The position numbers were made by a program, and so were the translations under genes. From Oerskovia jenensis (GTDB lineage: Bacteria; Actinomycetota; Actinomycetes; Actinomycetales; Cellulomonadaceae): a stretch of DNA of 64,000 nucleotides. Below the pieces are notes generated by a model. It worked only from the letters and a program-made list of their open reading frames with translations. It was not told the origin of the DNA and ran no database searches. Position 1 is the stretch's first letter; every line of letters starts with the position of its first letter. The stretch covers positions 1,798,001 to 1,862,000 of the forward strand of contig NZ_JAFBBO010000001.1 in the NCBI RefSeq assembly GCF_016907235.1, in the 5' to 3' direction. Below are positions 18,807-62,448 of the stretch, one piece after another.

Positions 18807-21656
18807 GTGCCCAGCCCGTCGCGAACCCCGGAACCGGACGCCGCGTCGGACGACTCGGCGAGCGTCTCGTCACGTTCCCGCGGCCCCGGTGCCCGCACCG
18901 ACGCGAGCGCCGGCGCACCGCCTCTCTCCGAGCGCCCCGGCGCCCTGCTCGACGTCCTGCTCGCGGGGGGCCGCCGCGCCGACCGGATGACGCACGTCGA
19001 GCACCTGCCCGGACGCCCCGGCCGCCAGGCGGACTGGCCCGTCTGGGCCGACGCCTCGCTCGTCGCGGGCTACCGCTCGATGGGCGTCGAGCGGCCCTGG
19101 GTGCACCAGGTCGAGGCGGCAGAGGCCGCCTGGTCGGGTCGGCACGTCGCACTCGCGACCTCGACCGGTTCGGGCAAGTCGCTCGCGTTCTGGCTCCCCG
19201 CGCTCAGCGCGGTGCGTGCCGACCGCGCCGCCGAGACCCTGGCCCCCGGCCGGATCGAGAGCGCCCGGACACGCGGCACGGTCCTCTACCTGAGCCCGAC
19301 CAAGGCTCTCGCAGCCGACCAGGTGAACGGTCTCCAGCGACTTCTCGACGCGTCGCGCGCGGGCGACGTCAAGGTCTCGACGTGCGACGGGGACACCTCG
19401 TTCGAGGAGCGCAAGTGGGTCCAGGAGTACGCCGACGTCGTGCTGACCAACCCCGACTTCCTGCACTTCGCGCTCCTGCCGAACCACCGGCGCTGGGCAC
19501 GGTTCCTGCGCAACCTGCGCTACGTCGTCGTCGACGAGGGGCATTCCTACCGGGGGGTGTTCGGGGCGCACGTGGCCCTGGTGCTGCGACGGCTCGCACG
19601 GCTCTCGGCGCACTACGCCCCGGCGCCCCCGTCGACTCCCGCCGGACTGTCAGAACCAGCGAGCCGTCGAGGTCACGCGCGTTCTGACAGCACCGCCACC
19701 AGGGGCCTCACGTTCGTCGTCGCGTCGGCCACGACGGCGGACCCCGCGGTCAGCGCGGGTCGGCTCATCGGGGTCCCGCCCGAGCAGATCGTGACGGTCG
19801 ATGCCGACACGAGCCCCGCCGGGCGCAGGACGTTCGCGCTGTGGCAGCCGCCCGAGGTCCTGGGCTACGAGGCCGCACGGGCTCGCGCCGCCACGGCGGA
19901 CGACCCCGCCGCCGAGTCCCTCCTGACCCCGCAGCTCACGGACCCCACGGCCCACGACGCCTCGATGCTCCCCGGCCTGACGAACGACCCCGACGAACCG
20001 GCGACCCCGGGCGACCCGCCGGAGCGCCCGCGCCGGTCGGCCACGGCAGAGGTCGCGGACCTCCTGGCCGACCTCACGGCCGCAGGCGCCCGGACCCTTG
20101 CCTTCACCCGCTCGCGTCGCGGCGCCGAGTCCGTCGCGACCCAGACCCAGGACCACCTGCGCGTCGTCTCGCCCCAGCTCGCGCGCCGCGTCGCGGCCTA
20201 TCGCGGCGGGTATCTGCCCGAGGAGCGGCGAGCGCTCGAGCAGGCGCTGCGCAGCGGTGCGATCCGGGGTCTCGCAACCACCAACGCGCTCGAGCTGGGC
20301 GTCGACATCTCGGGTCTCGACGCGGTGCTCATCGCGGGCTGGCCGGGCACGCGCATGTCGGTCTGGCAGCAGGCCGGGCGCGCGGGGCGGGCGGGGGCCG
20401 ACGGCCTGGTCGCGTTCGTCGCACGCGAGGACCCGCTCGACACCTACCTCGTGCACCACCCCGAGGCGATCTTCGCGGCTCCCCTGGAGGCGACGGTCTT
20501 CGACCCCGCCAACCCGTACGTCCTCGCGCCGCACCTGTGCGCGGCCGCCGCGGAGGTCCCCCTCCGGCAGTCGGACCTCCCCGTGTTCGGCGACCCCGCC
20601 GCGGTGACCGAGCTCCTGGGGGTGCTGGTCGCACGAGGTGCGCTGCGCCGTCGGGCGTCCGGGTGGTACTGGACCCACGCCCGGTCCGCCGCCGCGATGA
20701 CGGACCTGCGGGGCTCGGGCGGCTCGCCCGTGCGCGTCGTCGAGACCGGCACGGGCCGCCTGCTCGGCACCGTCGACGCCGGGTCCGCCGACGGCTCGGT
20801 CCACGACGGTGCGGTCTACGTGCACCAGGGCGTGAGCTACGTCGTGGAGTCGCTCGACCTGCGCGACGGGGTCGCGCTCGTGGCGCGCCGCGACGTCGAC
20901 TTCGGGACGTGGTCGCGCTCGGTCACGGAGATCACGATCCACGGCATCCGCGACGAGGAGCCGGGCGAGGACCCGGCTGCGGTCCCCGGTGGGGAGCCCC
21001 CGAGCGACGGCCCGACGGCGGAGCCCACCCCGGGCGACCAGCCGCCCGTCCCGCAGGGCACGGCCCCGAACGACACCGCGCACCCCGCGATCCACCGCTG
21101 GTGGGGGCCGATCGGCTGGGGGTTCGGGCCGGTCGAGGTGACGAACCAGGTCGTGAGCTTCCAGCGGCGACGACTGCCCGACCTGCAGATCCTGGGCACC
21201 GAACCGCTCGACCTGCCCGAGCACACCCTCCCGACCACGGCCGTCTGGTGGACGGTCCCCGCCGAGGTCCTCGACGCGGCGGGCATCGACGCCGACACGG
21301 CGCCGGGCGCTCTGCACGCGGCCGAGCACGCGTCGATCGGGCTCCTCCCCCTGCTCGCGACCTGCGACCGCTGGGACCTGGGCGGGGTGTCGACCGCGAT
21401 GCACGTCGACACCGAGCAGGCCACGGTCTTCGTGTACGACGCGTACCCGGGCGGCGCGGGCTTCGCCGAGCGCGGTTTCCACCTGGGCGCGACGTGGCTG
21501 CGTGCGACGCGGGCCGCGATCTCGCGCTGCCCGTGCGCGGACGGCTGCCCCGCGTGCGTGCAGTCGCCCAAGTGCGGCAACTTCAACCACCCGCTCGACA
21601 AGGCTGCGGCGGTCCGCCTGCTCGACGCGGTGCTCGCGTACGCGCCGTCCGAGTGA
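18807..21656 (+). CDS. DEAD/DEAH-box helicase with C-terminal zinc cluster (helicase/secretion neighbourhood type, DUF1998)
   Basis: 949 residues. Motor motifs: STGSGKSLAFWLPAL (about 117), DEGHSYRGV (about 243), ASATT, and a second RecA-like domain (LELGVDISGLDAV, WQQAGRAGRAG). The C-terminal DUF1998 part has a four-cysteine cluster CPCADGCPACVQSPKC near 907. It belongs to the helicase always found beside actinobacterial Tad genes and to the MrfA/YprA-like repair helicases. The GTG at 18807 is preceded by GGGAGA. A 42-bp palindrome (19648-19689) is read through in frame between motifs II and III, adding about 14 residues (SEPAS...GHARSDS). Confidence 0.9.
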   Translation: MPSPSRTPEPDAASDDSASVSSRSRGPGARTDASAGAPPLSERPGALLDVLLAGGRRADRMTHVEHLPGRPGRQADWPVWADASLVAGYRSMGVERPWVHQVEAAEAAWSGRHVALATSTGSGKSLAFWLPALSAVRADRAAETLAPGRIESARTRGTVLYLSPTKALAADQVNGLQRLLDASRAGDVKVSTCDGDTSFEERKWVQEYADVVLTNPDFLHFALLPNHRRWARFLRNLRYVVVDEGHSYRGVFGAHVALVLRRLARLSAHYAPAPPSTPAGLSEPASRRGHARSDSTATRGLTFVVASATTADPAVSAGRLIGVPPEQIVTVDADTSPAGRRTFALWQPPEVLGYEAARARAATADDPAAESLLTPQLTDPTAHDASMLPGLTNDPDEPATPGDPPERPRRSATAEVADLLADLTAAGARTLAFTRSRRGAESVATQTQDHLRVVSPQLARRVAAYRGGYLPEERRALEQALRSGAIRGLATTNALELGVDISGLDAVLIAGWPGTRMSVWQQAGRAGRAGADGLVAFVAREDPLDTYLVHHPEAIFAAPLEATVFDPANPYVLAPHLCAAAAEVPLRQSDLPVFGDPAAVTELLGVLVARGALRRRASGWYWTHARSAAAMTDLRGSGGSPVRVVETGTGRLLGTVDAGSADGSVHDGAVYVHQGVSYVVESLDLRDGVALVARRDVDFGTWSRSVTEITIHGIRDEEPGEDPAAVPGGEPPSDGPTAEPTPGDQPPVPQGTAPNDTAHPAIHRWWGPIGWGFGPVEVTNQVVSFQRRRLPDLQILGTEPLDLPEHTLPTTAVWWTVPAEVLDAAGIDADTAPGALHAAEHASIGLLPLLATCDRWDLGGVSTAMHVDTEQATVFVYDAYPGGAGFAERGFHLGATWLRATRAAISRCPCADGCPACVQSPKCGNFNHPLDKAAAVRLLDAVLAYAPSE
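19648..19689. repeat. 42-bp palindrome, family 1, inside a helicase gene
   Basis: Ends TGTCAGAAC and GTTCTGACA; the inside is diverged (CAGCGAGCCG and GGTCACGCGC). It keeps the helicase frame and encodes a Ser/Arg/Ala-rich loop. Confidence 0.85.
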
Positions 21657-26318: not shown

Positions 26319-26636
26319 ATGCCGTTCGGTGACGACCCGCACCGGAGCGACGACCAGCACCGGAGTGACGACCCGCGCCGGAGCGACGACCGCTGGGACG
26401 GCGGCCCGGTCCCGCTCAGCCGGATCGCCGCAGGAGCCGTCCGGCTCGAGTCGGCCCGGCGGGACATCACGCAGGAGGATCTCGCCGAGCTCCTCGGCAG
26501 GTCGCGCAGCGCCGTCTCCCAGCGCTTCACGGGCAAGGTCGCGTGGTCGCTCGACGACCTCGGCACCATCGCGGCCGCGTTCGGCTGCCCTGTCGCGCAC
26601 CTGCTGGACGACGGCCCTCCCGGGCACCGCCGCTAG
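26319..26636 (+). CDS. small XRE-type helix-turn-helix regulator
   Basis: 105 residues. The helix-turn-helix at about 45-95 contains DITQEDLAELLGRSRSAVSQ and a typical tail AAFGCPVAHLLDDG. The N-terminus holds three 6-residue repeats (HRSDD type) encoded by an 18-bp tandem repeat at 26337-26390. No strong ribosome-binding site. It converges on tadC. Confidence 0.75.
   Translation: MPFGDDPHRSDDQHRSDDPRRSDDRWDGGPVPLSRIAAGAVRLESARRDITQEDLAELLGRSRSAVSQRFTGKVAWSLDDLGTIAAAFGCPVAHLLDDGPPGHRR
26337..26390 (+). repeat. 18-bp tandem repeat, three units, in XRE gene
   Basis: Units encode P/Q-H/R-R-S-D-D three times (CACCGGAGCGACGAC core with small changes). The copy number changes length in frame, so the acidic/basic N-terminal arm may vary between strains. 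Confidence 0.8.
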
Positions 26637-43301: not shown

Positions 43302-43343
43302 TGTCAGAACCAGCGAGGTCTGGAGGCCACGCTCGCTCTGACA
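43302..43343. repeat. 42-bp palindrome, family 1 (first of a pair)
   Basis: Ends TGTCAGAAC and CTCTGACA. Left arm is the CCAGCGAG type and the right arm the CGTGG type, so it is an imperfect hybrid. Starts 63 bp before the next copy. Confidence 0.85.
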
Positions 43344-43364: not shown

Positions 43365-43406
43365 TGTCAGAACCAGCGAGCCCCCGGGTACCCGCTGGTT
43401 CTGACA
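43365..43406. repeat. 42-bp palindrome, family 1 (second of a pair)
   Basis: TGTCAGAACCAGCG and CGCTGGTTCTGACA, 14-bp perfect arms, inner part CCCCGGGTACC. Gap to the first copy is 21 bp. Confidence 0.85.
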
Positions 43407-43505
43407 CGAGGGGCCCCGGGTGCCGCTCGCCGCTCCGTCGGACACGCCGCTCCGTCGGACACAGGGACGGCTCCTGGTGTTCACGGGACCGAAACTCGTC
43501 GTGGC

Positions 43506-43518: not shown

Positions 43519-44235
43519 ATGCGGATCGAACCTCTCACGTTCCCCGCGCCCGGTGGTGGCGCGCTCGTCCCCTCGACCACGCGAGGTGGGACCACGGTCC
43601 GGTCAGGGCGCCCGGGAGGCTCGACCCAGGCGAGCAGGCCGGGTCGATCGGACCAGCCGGGCCGGCCCGGTTCCCCCGCCTCCGGCCGCCCGGGGCCGGC
43701 GAGCGCCCCGGCCCCGGCCGGGCTCTCGCTGCTCGACAGCCTCGCCGCCAGGACCGCCGACCTGTCCCACCTCGCGGACGTGCTGATCGACTGCGTCCAG
43801 GGCGGCGCGAGCGTCGGGTGGGTCAAGGCGCCGACCAAGGAGGCCGCGACGGCCTGGTGGTCCGCGTTCCTCGCGGACCCGGACCACCGCACGTGGGTCG
43901 GGCGCGACGACTCGGGCAGGATCGTCGCGACCGCCTCGCTCGCCCTGACCTCGAAGGACAACGGCGCGCACCGCGCCGAGGTGGTCAAGCTCCTGGTCCA
44001 CCGTCAGGCGCGGGGCAACAGGTTCGCGCCGGGTCTCATGGCGACGATCGAGCGCTTCGCCCGTGCCGAGGGGCTCACGCTCCTGATGCTCGACACCGAG
44101 ACGGGGAGTCTGGCCGAGTCCCTCTACCGGCGGTGGGGGTGGACCGAGGCGGGCTCGGTGCCGGGGTTCGCCAAGGTCGCGGGTGGCGCTCTCGTGTCGA
44201 CGACGATCTTCTACAAGCAGGTCGCCGCGCGCTGA
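43519..44235 (+). CDS. GNAT family N-acetyltransferase
   Basis: 238 residues. The first ~70 are a Gly/Pro/Arg-rich low-complexity stretch; the GNAT fold begins near 80, with the acetyl-CoA loop HRQARGNRFAPGLMA near 160 and the C-terminal YRRWGWTEAGSVPGFA. Substrate unknown. Likely leaderless. In-frame GTG at 43510 is an alternative start. Confidence 0.82.
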   Translation: MRIEPLTFPAPGGGALVPSTTRGGTTVRSGRPGGSTQASRPGRSDQPGRPGSPASGRPGPASAPAPAGLSLLDSLAARTADLSHLADVLIDCVQGGASVGWVKAPTKEAATAWWSAFLADPDHRTWVGRDDSGRIVATASLALTSKDNGAHRAEVVKLLVHRQARGNRFAPGLMATIERFARAEGLTLLMLDTETGSLAESLYRRWGWTEAGSVPGFAKVAGGALVSTTIFYKQVAAR

Positions 44236-44347
44236 CGACGCGCGCCCGACGGTCGCCACGCGCGGACGACGCGCGCCCGGCGCACGCCCGGCGCCGACCC
44301 GGACGCCCGACGCCGCGCACCAAGGGGCCGCGCACCAAGGGGCCGCG

Positions 44348-47657: not shown

Positions 47658-48898
47658 CTCGGAAGCCTAGCTGCGGGTGCCACCACCGGACTGTCAGAAC
47701 GAGCGTGACCTGGAGCGCTCGCTGGTTCTGACACGTCGCTGTCCAGCACCCGCAGCACCGCGCGCACCGCCTCGCGACCTGCCCGGTTCGCCCCGATGGT
47801 CGACGCGCTCGGCCCGTACCCGACGAGCTGGACGCGGGGGTCGGCGACCACGGTCGGACCGTCCATGACGATCCCCCCGCCGGGACCTCGCAGCCCCAGC
47901 GGCCCGAGGTGGTCGAGCGCGGCCCGGAAGCCCGTGGCCCACAGGATCACGTCGGCACCCTGGTGCGTCACGCCGTCGGCACGGACGCCGGGGTCCCACG
48001 CGACGCCGTCGGGCACGACGCGCGCGAACATCGGCAGGCGCCGCAGGACGCCCGACGCGATACCCGCCTCGTACGCGGGCGTGAGCGGCAGCCCCGTGAC
48101 CGACACGACGCTCTCCGGGGCCAGGCCCGCGCGCGTGCGCTCGTCGACGAGGGCCACCGCGTCGCGCCCTCGGTTCTCGTCGAACGGACCGCCGACCCAC
48201 ACGGGTTCGCGGCGCGTGACCCACGTGGTCGAGGCCGCGTGCGGCGCGATCTGGAGCAGGAACTGGGTCGCGGACGCGCCGCCGCCCACCACGACGACGC
48301 GCTTGCCCGCGAAGTCCTCGGCGGCACCGAAGTCGTGCGTGTGGAGCTGCGTGCCCGCGAACGTCTCGCGGCCCGGGTACGAGGGCCAGAACGGCTTGGT
48401 CCACGTACCGGTCGCGTTGACGAGCGTCCGCGCACGCCAGGTCACCGGCCCGTCGGCCGTGGTCGACCCGACGAGCAGCGCGTCCGAGCCCGGGTCGTCG
48501 CGCACCTCGCGCACCGCGACGGGCCGCAGCACCCGCAGGTCGTTGACCTGCTCGTACGCCCCGAAGTACCGCCCGACGGCGGTGCTCGCGCTCTCCTGCG
48601 GGTCACCCGCGTCGAGGGCCAGGCCGGGCAGGTCGTGCACCGCGTGCGTCTGCGCCATGGTGAGCGACGGCCACCGGAACTGCCACGCCCCGCCCGGGGC
48701 GGGCGCCGCGTCGAGCACCACGAAGGTGCGCCGCACGCCCGAGGCGGCGTCGTCGTCGGGCCCGCTCGACGGGAGACCGTCGAGGCCGAGCGGGACGAAG
48801 CCCCGGCGACGCAGGTGGAACGCGGCCGAGAGACCGGCCTGGCCCGCGCCCACCACGAGGACGTCGACGGGGTGTACCGGTGCGGACGAGGTGCTCAC
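47654..48898 (-). CDS. flavin-dependent monooxygenase/oxidoreductase
   Basis: 414 residues from the GTG at 48898 (an ATG at 48931 would add 11; neither has a clear ribosome-binding site). FAD motif GAGQAGLSAAFHL at about 17-29, NADPH motif VVVGGGASATQF near 198, and WATGFRAALDHL later, all as in flavin monooxygenases of the YhhA/CzcO type. The last ~25 residues (SEPAS..GHARSDS) are encoded by a family 1 palindrome, and the stop overlaps the MFS start (GTGA). Confidence 0.85.
   Translation of the reverse strand: MSTSSAPVHPVDVLVVGAGQAGLSAAFHLRRRGFVPLGLDGLPSSGPDDDAASGVRRTFVVLDAAPAPGGAWQFRWPSLTMAQTHAVHDLPGLALDAGDPQESASTAVGRYFGAYEQVNDLRVLRPVAVREVRDDPGSDALLVGSTTADGPVTWRARTLVNATGTWTKPFWPSYPGRETFAGTQLHTHDFGAAEDFAGKRVVVVGGGASATQFLLQIAPHAASTTWVTRREPVWVGGPFDENRGRDAVALVDERTRAGLAPESVVSVTGLPLTPAYEAGIASGVLRRLPMFARVVPDGVAWDPGVRADGVTHQGADVILWATGFRAALDHLGPLGLRGPGGGIVMDGPTVVADPRVQLVGYGPSASTIGANRAGREAVRAVLRVLDSDVSEPASAPGHARSDSPVVAPAARLPR
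47692..47733. repeat. 42-bp palindrome, family 1, in monooxygenase 3' end
   Basis: Left arm is the CGTGACC type, right arm the CCAGCGAG type. Read on the minus strand it gives SEPAS...GHARSDS, the same peptide ends as in the Tad-locus helicase. Confidence 0.85.
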
Positions 48899-50373: not shown

Positions 50374-50415
50374 TGTCAGAACCAGCGAGGGGCCTGGCCC
50401 TCGCTGGTTCTGACA
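50374..50415. repeat. 42-bp palindrome, family 1
   Basis: Arms of 18 perfect bp (TGTCAGAACCAGCGAGGG) around GCCTGG; 19 bp after the esterase stop and before mshD, both genes on the plus strand. Confidence 0.9.
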
Positions 50416-54842: not shown

Positions 54843-54884
54843 TGTCAGAACGAGCGTGACCCAGGGTGCTCGCTCGTTCTGACA
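54843..54884. repeat. 42-bp palindrome, family 1 (first of a pair)
   Basis: Left TGTCAGAACGAGCGTGACCC, right arm ends CGCTCGTTCTGACA, imperfect in the middle. Starts 18 bp after the mutT1 stop and 63 bp before the next copy. Confidence 0.9.
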
Positions 54885-54905
54885 CCCCTGTGGTCGGCAC
54901 CCGGT

Positions 54906-54947
54906 TGTCAGAACGAGCGTGACCTCGAGGTCACGCTCGTTCTGACA
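54906..54947. repeat. 42-bp perfect palindrome, family 1 (second of a pair)
   Basis: TGTCAGAACGAGCGTGACCT with a centre TCGA and its exact reverse complement. The right end is 3 bp from the stop of the DUF559/AbiEi-like gene. Confidence 0.92.
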
Positions 54948-54949
54948 CG

Positions 54950-55885
54950 TCAGGTGCGTCGGAGGTAGCGCTCCAGGATCCGCGCCACCCGGAGGGGCTC
55001 GATCCGGGCGGCGGCTGCGGGCAGGCGGATCGTCACCGTGCCCTCGTCCGGACCGAGCTCGGCGCCCCGCAGCAGGTCGTCGTACCAACGTGTCGCCTCC
55101 ATGTGCCCGATCCCGTCGATCTCCACGACGAGTCGCCGACCACCCGGCAGGTCCCACTCGGCGTCGAGGAACCTCCAGCGGCCGCGCGCGTCCTGCCGCC
55201 GTACCTGGCGCCGGGGCTCGGGGAACCCGTGCTCACGGCAGAGCTTCCCGAAGTCGATCTCGCTCAACGCATCTGCCCCTCCGCGGATGTCGGCGACGCT
55301 CGCCCGCATGAGGCGGTGGAACCGCACCTTCCCGACCCGGTCGAGCTGTTCCCAGAGGCGCTCCGGCGTGGTCAGCCGTTGCTGCACCACCGCGGCCAGC
55401 AGCCCGACGGCGGTGCGCGGCGAGGTCTGCCAGGCTGCGGCGTCGATCGCGCACCGCTCGACCCGGTGCACGGGAAGCCCACGGCGGTGCTCGATGTCCT
55501 CGGGCGCGGGCCGTCGCGACTCATGGACGACGACGCCCGCGAGCCGCGGTGGTCTGCTCCCCCGCCGCACGACCACATGGATCCCGGGCCGGTCCCATCC
55601 ACGAAGCCCGTGGAGCGCCAGCCCGGTCCAGGAACCGATCGCGACGGGCTCGGCGGCGGCCAGGGCGACGACCCACAGGCGCGTACCGGGGGCGAGGGGC
55701 CCTGTGTACAGCACGAGGACCTCGGGCGCGACGAGCTGCCAGCGGCGGGCGCTGAGCTGGGACCCGATGTGGAAGCGGTCGACGCCGAGGTCCGCGAGCT
55801 GCTTGCGGGTCACGGCGTGCGCTTGTCGTGCGGCGAGCCGGGCGAGGCCCGAGACGGTGCGCAGTGCGGACGAGGAGCCTGTCAT
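54950..55885 (-). CDS. DUF559/AbiEi-like protein with endonuclease-type C-terminal domain
   Basis: 311 residues from the ATG at 55885. The N-terminal part reads like an AbiEi-type winged helix (QAHAVTRKQLADLGVDRFHI, then PGTRLWVVALAAAEP). The C-terminal ~110 residues carry LSEIDFGKLCREHGFPEPR, FLDAEWDLPGGRRLVVEIDG and IGHMEA, a PD-(D/E)XK-like (DUF559/Vsr) pattern. Standalone; could act on DNA or be a defence-related factor. Bracketed on both sides by pairs of 42-bp palindromes. No ribosome-binding site is clear. Confidence 0.7.
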   Translation of the reverse strand: MTGSSSALRTVSGLARLAARQAHAVTRKQLADLGVDRFHIGSQLSARRWQLVAPEVLVLYTGPLAPGTRLWVVALAAAEPVAIGSWTGLALHGLRGWDRPGIHVVVRRGSRPPRLAGVVVHESRRPAPEDIEHRRGLPVHRVERCAIDAAAWQTSPRTAVGLLAAVVQQRLTTPERLWEQLDRVGKVRFHRLMRASVADIRGGADALSEIDFGKLCREHGFPEPRRQVRRQDARGRWRFLDAEWDLPGGRRLVVEIDGIGHMEATRWYDDLLRGAELGPDEGTVTIRLPAAAARIEPLRVARILERYLRRT

Positions 55886-55993
55886 GGGACCGAGGATGCG
55901 CCGTCGGGCGGGCGCTCGTCCCCAGGACGACCGGGCGCTGTGGACAACAGCAGGCGGACGCGCCCTGTGCACGACTCACCGCATCCACCGATG

Positions 55994-56035
55994 TGTCAGA
56001 ACCAGCGAGCACTCGAGTCCACGCTCGGTCTGACA
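55994..56035. repeat. 42-bp palindrome, family 1 (first of a pair)
   Basis: Left arm CCAGCGAG type (TGTCAGAACCAGCGAGC), right arm CACGCTCGGTCTGACA; imperfect. Starts 63 bp before the next copy. Confidence 0.88.
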
Positions 56036-56056
56036 CCCGGCACACGGCCCGCAACG

Positions 56057-56098
56057 TGTCAGAACGAGCGTGACCTCGAGGTCACGCTCGTTCTGACA
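56057..56098. repeat. 42-bp perfect palindrome, family 1 (second of a pair)
   Basis: Identical to the copies at 54906 and 62407; 16 bp from the pit stop on the far side. Confidence 0.92.
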
Positions 56099-61964: not shown

Positions 61965-62423
61965 GTGAGCGCCCCGTCGGGCGACGCGTCGGTGGCGCCG
62001 TCGGGCGTCGCGCCCGGGGACCGCGCTGCCCGACGGCGCAGCCGCCCCCGCGTCCTGGCCGTCCTCGTGGTCGTGGTCGCCCTGGGCCTCGTGGTGACGA
62101 CGCAGGTCCCCGACCCCGTCGGTGACGTGGTCGGGGACCTGCTGTACGCCGTCGCGGTCTACGTGGCGCTCGTGCTCGTGGCTCCCCGGCTGCGACCGTG
62201 GGTCGCGGGGGCCGGGGTGCTCGCGTGGTGCTGGCTCGTGGAGGCCCTGCAGGCGACCCCCGTCGTGGCCGCCGTGCTGGACGTGGTGCCCGCGGCCGCG
62301 TGGGTGCTCGGGAGCACGTTCGCCGTGCGCGACCTGGTGCTGTACCTGGTGGGCGCGCTGCTCGCGGTGACCCTCGACGTGCTCGTCACCGTCCGGACCT
62401 CGCGGGTGTCAGAACGAGCGTGA
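61965..62423 (+). CDS. DUF2809 membrane protein
   Basis: 152 residues, basic N-terminus (RAARRRSRPR) and four membrane spans (VLAVLVVVVALGLVV; LLYAVAVYVALVLVA; VAGAGVLAWCWLVEALQAT; LVLYLVGALLAVTLDVL), with WCWLVEALQ and RDLVLYLVGAL as in DUF2809. Function unknown. Its last codons SERA-stop are the left arm of a family 1 palindrome. Confidence 0.82.
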   Translation: MSAPSGDASVAPSGVAPGDRAARRRSRPRVLAVLVVVVALGLVVTTQVPDPVGDVVGDLLYAVAVYVALVLVAPRLRPWVAGAGVLAWCWLVEALQATPVVAAVLDVVPAAAWVLGSTFAVRDLVLYLVGALLAVTLDVLVTVRTSRVSERA

Positions 62424-62448
62424 CCTCGAGGTCACGCTCGTTCTGACA
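62407..62448. repeat. 42-bp perfect palindrome, family 1, overlapping a stop codon
   Basis: Identical to 54906 and 56057. TCAGAACGAGCGTGA in it supplies the DUF2809 stop. It lies between convergent genes (msrB ends at 62465), so a terminator role is possible here. Confidence 0.92.

Follow-up and report, generated by a model that had tools for sequence, protein, structure and literature searches.

Dispersed 42-bp palindromes in Oerskovia jenensis as probable sites of an AbiEi-like protein encoded between two palindrome pairs

A 42-bp palindrome is dispersed through the genome of Oerskovia jenensis, and its copies are probably sites for the protein of a gene that lies between two palindrome pairs. 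This protein, a proposed nuclease, would have spread the copies in the manner of a REPtron. The window that we analysed, a 64-kb stretch of DNA, has ten copies of the palindrome TGTCAGAACSAGCGWG-N10-CWCGCTSGTTCTGACA, arranged as three tandem pairs and four singles. The pairs 54843/54906 and 55994/56057 bracket one minus-strand gene, which the first-pass annotation had missed. The features are listed here; palindromes and gaps are given without strand.

54843–54884: 42-bp palindrome, left member of the pair 3ʹ of the gene, palindrome score 17/21
54885–54905: 21-bp gap, with no likeness to its flanks
54906–54947: 42-bp palindrome, right member, perfect, with the stop codon of the minus-strand gene 2 nt away
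54950–55885, minus strand: bracketed gene, 311 aa, with an AbiEi-like N-terminal part and an extra C-terminal domain; the ORF is open to a GTG at 55972
54953–55327, minus strand: C-terminal 125 codons, putative nuclease domain; E, D, ExD and H are invariant
55994–56035: 42-bp palindrome, left member of the pair 5ʹ of the gene, palindrome score 17/21
56036–56056: 21-bp gap
56057–56098: perfect 42-bp palindrome, with the PHO4 stop codon 16 nt away
43302–43343: 42-bp palindrome, third pair, left member
43365–43406: 42-bp palindrome, third pair, right member
19648–19689: single copy
47692–47733: single copy that falls in a called ORF; O. turbata keeps it intact, and it is decayed in relatives that lack the gene
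50374–50415: single copy, with no counterpart at this site in G002 and G003
62407–62448: single copy, perfect

The start-to-start distance is exactly 63 bp in all three window pairs, as the first-pass annotation had stated. Its view that the 21-bp gaps are unrelated sequence also holds. Compared with the left or right flank, the gaps are 19–52% identical, and they are hence not duplicated flanks. A further claim, that the left copy of a pair is the imperfect one, fits the three window pairs (palindrome scores out of 21, left/right: 16/18, 17/21 and 17/21), and in the first of them, 43302/43365, the right copy is imperfect as well. The claim does not extend to the 11 pairs of the whole genome, in which the left copy is the worse in six, the right in four, and one is a tie. 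The window has other repeats too. Adjoining the 43302/43365 pair, at 43431–43461, a 17-bp unit ending GTCGGACAC is repeated head-to-tail, with matches to TGTCCGACGGAGCG at 43431 and 43448. Two adjacent 31-bp direct repeats, 90% alike, lie at 44220–44281, and direct repeats of 18-bp period lie at 26329–26391, with at least three overlapping copies among the matches listed.

Genome-wide (4.45 Mb, one contig) there are 86 copies, every one of them 42 bp long in a search that allowed 40–44 bp; they come from exact-arm searches followed by a mismatch scan of the stretches around the matches, and degenerate copies elsewhere would be missed. The pattern TGTCAG-N30-CTGACA counts 88. Spacings below 300 bp are 62 bp (twice), 63 bp (nine times), 74, 105, 114, 133 and 270 bp. 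With copies placed at random, 0.16 neighbour spacings of 43–140 bp would be expected; we observed 15, and since 11 of these are 62 or 63 bp, the other four being 74, 105, 114 and 133 bp, the period claimed from the window is a strong rule for the genome but not an absolute one. Simple tandem duplication is rejected as the source of the period, because most gaps in this genome are not duplicated flanks; the closest to its flank is that of the pair at 1673034 (left flank versus gap, 0.62). Some members of 62/63-bp pairs are nearly identical and in direct order, and pair members agree on average at 10.0 of 14 central positions, compared with 8.2 of 14 for all pairs of copies. Part of the pairs therefore stem from local copying that left out the gap.

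Is the spacing peculiar to Oerskovia? The pattern TGTCAGAA-N20-34-TTCTGACA is present in 27 of 221 genomes of the family. The outer bases and the 42-bp length recur in nearly all matches listed (a few are 40 or 44 bp long), and the inner sequence of the palindrome differs from species to species. A pair search of these 27 genomes, with gaps of 6–36 bp allowed, gave 242 pairs in 20 genomes. Among the best 75 of the 242, which are from nine genomes, mostly of other genera and with other inner sequences, and which include near-identical G257 pairs on different contigs, 74 are spaced 60–63 bp (60 bp, nine; 61 bp, 48; 62 bp, 13; 63 bp, four) and one is spaced 72 bp. At G257 C1:570354, three successive units repeat the gap as well, which points to occasional duplication. 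Pairing is not obligatory, since five genomes of a single genus (g7) with 38–200 copies of TGTCAG-N30-CTGACA (G270, G268, G079, G088 and G266) have no pair in the range searched; among these, the gene was found only in G270. In G185, at C1:281912–281995 and again at 283008–283091, two ACGTCCG palindromes differing in inner type have a 4-nt overlap.

The N-terminal part of the bracketed gene's product resembles AbiEi. PADLOC matches residues 11–186 to AbiEi (E 2.4e-19), and a Foldseek search with an AlphaFold2 model (mean pLDDT 83) found AbiEi 6y8q (E 4.1e-5) and also Rv2827c 1zel; the Pfam family AbiEi_4 falls below its cut-off for the window protein. In the model, the last 125 residues form one helix, a stretch of three strands, another helix, a further strand and then two helices. 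Their E, D, ExD and H are kept in 32 of 32 homologues, and DUF559 (PF04480) matches nine of 27 members weakly (best E 0.0042), with the window protein below the cut-off. The C-terminal model has no PDB match at E ≤ 0.001. This domain is possibly nuclease-like. Y1_Tnp has no match in the 27 family members at E ≤ 0.1, and there is no DUF1814 toxin among the neighbouring genes tested (NUDIX/His_Phos, PHO4 and PhoU_div). A plasmid search gave no match, and a phage search only one, at 32% identity.

The positions of the copies bear on a rather unlikely alternative, in which an AbiEi-like orphan regulator acts on its own gene and on others by binding to the palindromes, without spreading them. AbiEi and Rv2827c are described in PMC7319586 as autoregulating through inverted repeats upstream, and upstream of the window gene there is a pair, at 108 and 171 nt. 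However, copies also lie downstream of the cognate gene, copy numbers differ strongly among close species, and most copies are 3ʹ of genes: a stop codon lies within 40 nt for 45 of the 53 intergenic copies that have a 3ʹ neighbour, and a start within 40 nt for only eight of 41. Sixty of the 86 copies are intergenic (34 between tandem, 19 between convergent and seven between divergent genes, as against 65, 32 and 32 intergenic gaps of at least 60 nt at the same loci) and 26 are inside called ORFs; positions were taken from a home-made trained gene caller, and an earlier caller likewise placed about 25 of 86 in ORFs. The copies are unevenly spread along the contig, with counts of 0, 2, 5, 7, 18, 9, 23, 14, 5 and 3 in ten equal bins. 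We make no claim of terminus targeting from this, because dnaA was not found at the contig start (two ORFs tested) and the bin counts thus have no origin or terminus as reference.

A 3ʹ position would also suit hairpins acting in RNA, as terminators or protectors of mRNA 3ʹ ends, that were spread by recombination, with the bracketed gene incidental. We consider this improbable. The predicted hairpins are strong (−16 to −36 kcal/mol), and at site 62407 G001, G004 and G006 have kept the palindrome through parallel changes in both arms relative to the Oerskovia consensus, as if it were kept as a hairpin. The 86 Oerskovia copies as a whole argue otherwise. Their 21-bp halves share one consensus and vary independently: arm positions 15–21, which played no part in finding the copies, agree in 358 of 602 cases, compared with 353.8 ± 10.8 after shuffling, and dropping identical copies leaves this result unchanged. 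Furthermore, the length is fixed at 42 bp, the four copies around the gene have no T-run behind them as an intrinsic terminator would, and the association with the gene is tight. Elsewhere, arm covariation is absent from the copies listed for G264 (18 of 47), G174 (18 of 21 listed, the three of another inner type being dropped) and G037 (12 of 23), borderline in G008 (nine of nine; P = 0.053) and present in G056 (18 of 37; P = 0.0002). The independence of the halves in Oerskovia therefore favours protein half-sites over a hairpin that must form. By the same token, the cruciform offered by the first-pass annotation finds no support in Oerskovia; G056, however, does covary. Its other suggestion, that a protein binds the pairs on one face of the helix, gains indirect support from the recurrence of 60–63-bp spacing in other genera, whose palindromes differ in inner sequence, from the independent half-sites in Oerskovia and from the AbiEi-like gene product.

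The association between gene and palindromes is seen across the family. The gene was found in 31 of 221 genomes (E ≤ 1e-20), presence being scored on at most the best ten candidates per genome, which leaves absences less than firm; five of the positives are partial or split (G048, G056, G080, G086 and G254). Outside Cellulomonas, all 22 gene-positive genomes carry 6–200 TGTCAG-N30-CTGACA elements, compared with 17 of 190 gene-negative genomes that carry at least six (109 in G079, 97 in G268). In Cellulomonas, all nine gene-positive genomes carry 9–54 elements of another palindrome, ACGTCCG, and three of 72 gene-negative genomes have more than two (G200, 19; G046, 10; G231, 41). A profile re-search of 22 gene-negative genomes, including the 17 copy-rich ones, returned only distant, partial relatives (best E 3.2e-16).

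Palindromes adjoin the gene almost wherever it occurs. Eighty homologue loci were fetched, from Cellulosimicrobium, Isoptericola, Micromonospora, Nocardioides, Knoellia and others, and 75 were scanned, five being too short. Palindromes lie within 500 bp on both sides of the gene at 53 loci, on one side at 16 and on neither at six. One copy upstream and one downstream have at least eight consecutive nucleotides in common at 52 of the 53 two-sided loci, as against 17% of randomly paired loci, and there are 163 palindromes beside the genes compared with 19 at a distance of 1.5–2 kb and 8.0 expected from shuffled flanks. At 30 loci of the family, palindromes starting TGTCAG (CGTCCG in Cellulomonas) adjoin nearly all genes. 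In alignment A1 a palindrome stands beside the gene in 26 of 27 rows; none was found alongside the gene piece of G086. The type of bracketing palindrome is clade-specific and changes with the protein clade, and palindrome likeness tracks protein likeness (Mantel r = 0.71, P = 0.0002; 26 of 27 loci), a correlation that could come partly from shared descent.

Bracketing was also looked for around more distant genes. DUF559 fails as a general key: matched palindromes flank none of the three other PF04480 genes of O. jenensis on both sides, in windows set from the domain match, inside which the far end of a gene may fall. Among 25 weak profile matches, seven (L256, L262, L265, L269, L273, L274 and L277), which are distant AbiEi/DUF559-like genes of other genera, have matched palindromes of their own. 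Bracketing may therefore extend past the family of the window gene.

The locus itself has been subject to turnover. The order NUDIX/His_Phos gene, bracketed gene, PHO4 gene is kept in nine genomes, and the bracketed gene opposes its left neighbour in three (the window, O. turbata and Cellulosimicrobium) and runs in the same direction in six. In O. enterophila and O. merdavium, the neighbouring proteins are 90–98% identical to those of the window, compared with 57% for the bracketed gene's protein, and the gene is inverted; it has another type of palindrome, and a relic of the window type (35/42) remains beside PHO4. A starred branch (97/95) separates the two Oerskovia gene types, but a tree in which the Oerskovia genes form one clade survives the AU test (P = 0.088). 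In G002 the gene is absent from the locus and decayed palindromes remain. Scores out of 42 at the sites orthologous to 47692, 54906 and 62407 are 39, 41 and 42 in O. turbata; among genomes that lack the gene they are 32, 32 and 35 in G002, 27, 20 and 34 in G006, and 33, 19 and 42 in G005, where 62407 is still perfect (background median 20, 95th percentile 24). Site 54843 was omitted, its score in O. turbata and G002 being that of the neighbouring copy 54906. Among the compared sites, which are too diverged, none showed a clean insertion or a target duplication.

Could the gene be a passenger, or a nuclease of the homing type that settles in palindromes which a RAYT, an insertion sequence or recombination has spread? 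Copy-rich genomes that lack the gene, and the gene-less G002 locus with its decayed palindromes, would be expected if so. Against this, a different protein clade comes with a different bracketing palindrome, and every gene-positive genome, within Cellulomonas and outside it, holds copies; we give the idea little credence. Still less probable are cruciform or nucleoid-structuring sites, to which the helical spacing and the uneven chromosomal distribution would be suited, since the arms need not pair and the distribution has no mapped origin or terminus to be read against.

We infer instead that the bracketed gene's protein binds the palindromes and makes the copies. Each 42-bp element would consist of two inverted 21-bp half-sites, bound by the AbiEi-like N-terminal part. 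Elements six helical turns apart (60–63 bp) would place the bound proteins on one face of the DNA, where they could touch. The C-terminal domain would then cut DNA, such that an element, or the gene together with its flanking palindromes, is copied, inverted or replaced. The outcome would be REPtron-like, that is, a gene with bracketing repeats together with orphan copies, mostly just 3ʹ of genes. We put forward more tentatively, as a possibility that falls somewhat short of probable, that such palindrome-spreading units occur throughout the actinomycetes, combining an AbiEi-type DNA-binding part and a nuclease-like domain of no known transposase family; that protein and palindrome coevolve; and that the cassette is swapped and inverted. 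The 63-bp period would on that reading be the footprint of the copying complex, because proteins spaced six turns apart would fix the register of the second copy.

How does this arrangement compare with known systems? It is like the REP/RAYT system (IS200/IS605-related) in several ways: the palindromes are short and dispersed, doublets have a preferred spacing, the gene has copies of the repeat on its flanks, each type of repeat goes with a type of protein, and the many copies are mainly extragenic. REP doublets of P. fluorescens have preferred spacings of 71 and 110 bp (PMC3116915). Unlike in REP/RAYT, the protein here is AbiEi-like, with Y1_Tnp unmatched, and the 42-bp palindromic unit has arms that vary independently in Oerskovia. 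The Oerskovia unit is symmetric (TGTCAG...CTGACA) and lacks a GTAG or CGTC tag, as defined in PMC3733652, at one end. REPINs, which fold into a single hairpin and are described in PMC3116915 as inverted doublets with compensatory changes, differ: in Oerskovia, pair members whose centres are alike have the same orientation, and the arms do not covary, although those of the G056 units do. CGTC-tagged REPs are likewise dispersed palindromes, reported without a dedicated transposase in the account given by PMC3733652; going by that description, they are set apart by their 8–9-bp stems with a tail. The type IV antitoxins AbiEi and Rv2827c share the N-terminal similarity, and known AbiEi proteins bind paired 23-bp inverted repeats near their own genes, according to PMC7319586. 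In contrast, the gene described here has no adjacent DUF1814 toxin, its product has an extra C-terminal domain, and its palindromes lie on both sides and are dispersed. DUF559 has a weak C-terminal similarity to some members; the window protein itself falls below the cut-off, and the PF04480 search of its genome returned three other genes. Among the freely available, published PMC papers covered, judged by title and start of abstract, none links an AbiEi- or DUF559-like gene with dispersed palindromes. This looks like a bacterial repeat system that has not been described before, with REPtron-like architecture and an unrelated protein.

If the protein spreads the palindromes, it would be a second solution to the REP problem, reached with an unrelated protein. 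The system, found in Micromonospora, Nocardioides and relatives of Cellulomonas, would then offer many matched protein–palindrome pairs in which to follow the evolution of DNA recognition. The regular spacing of repeat doublets could be put to the test as well.
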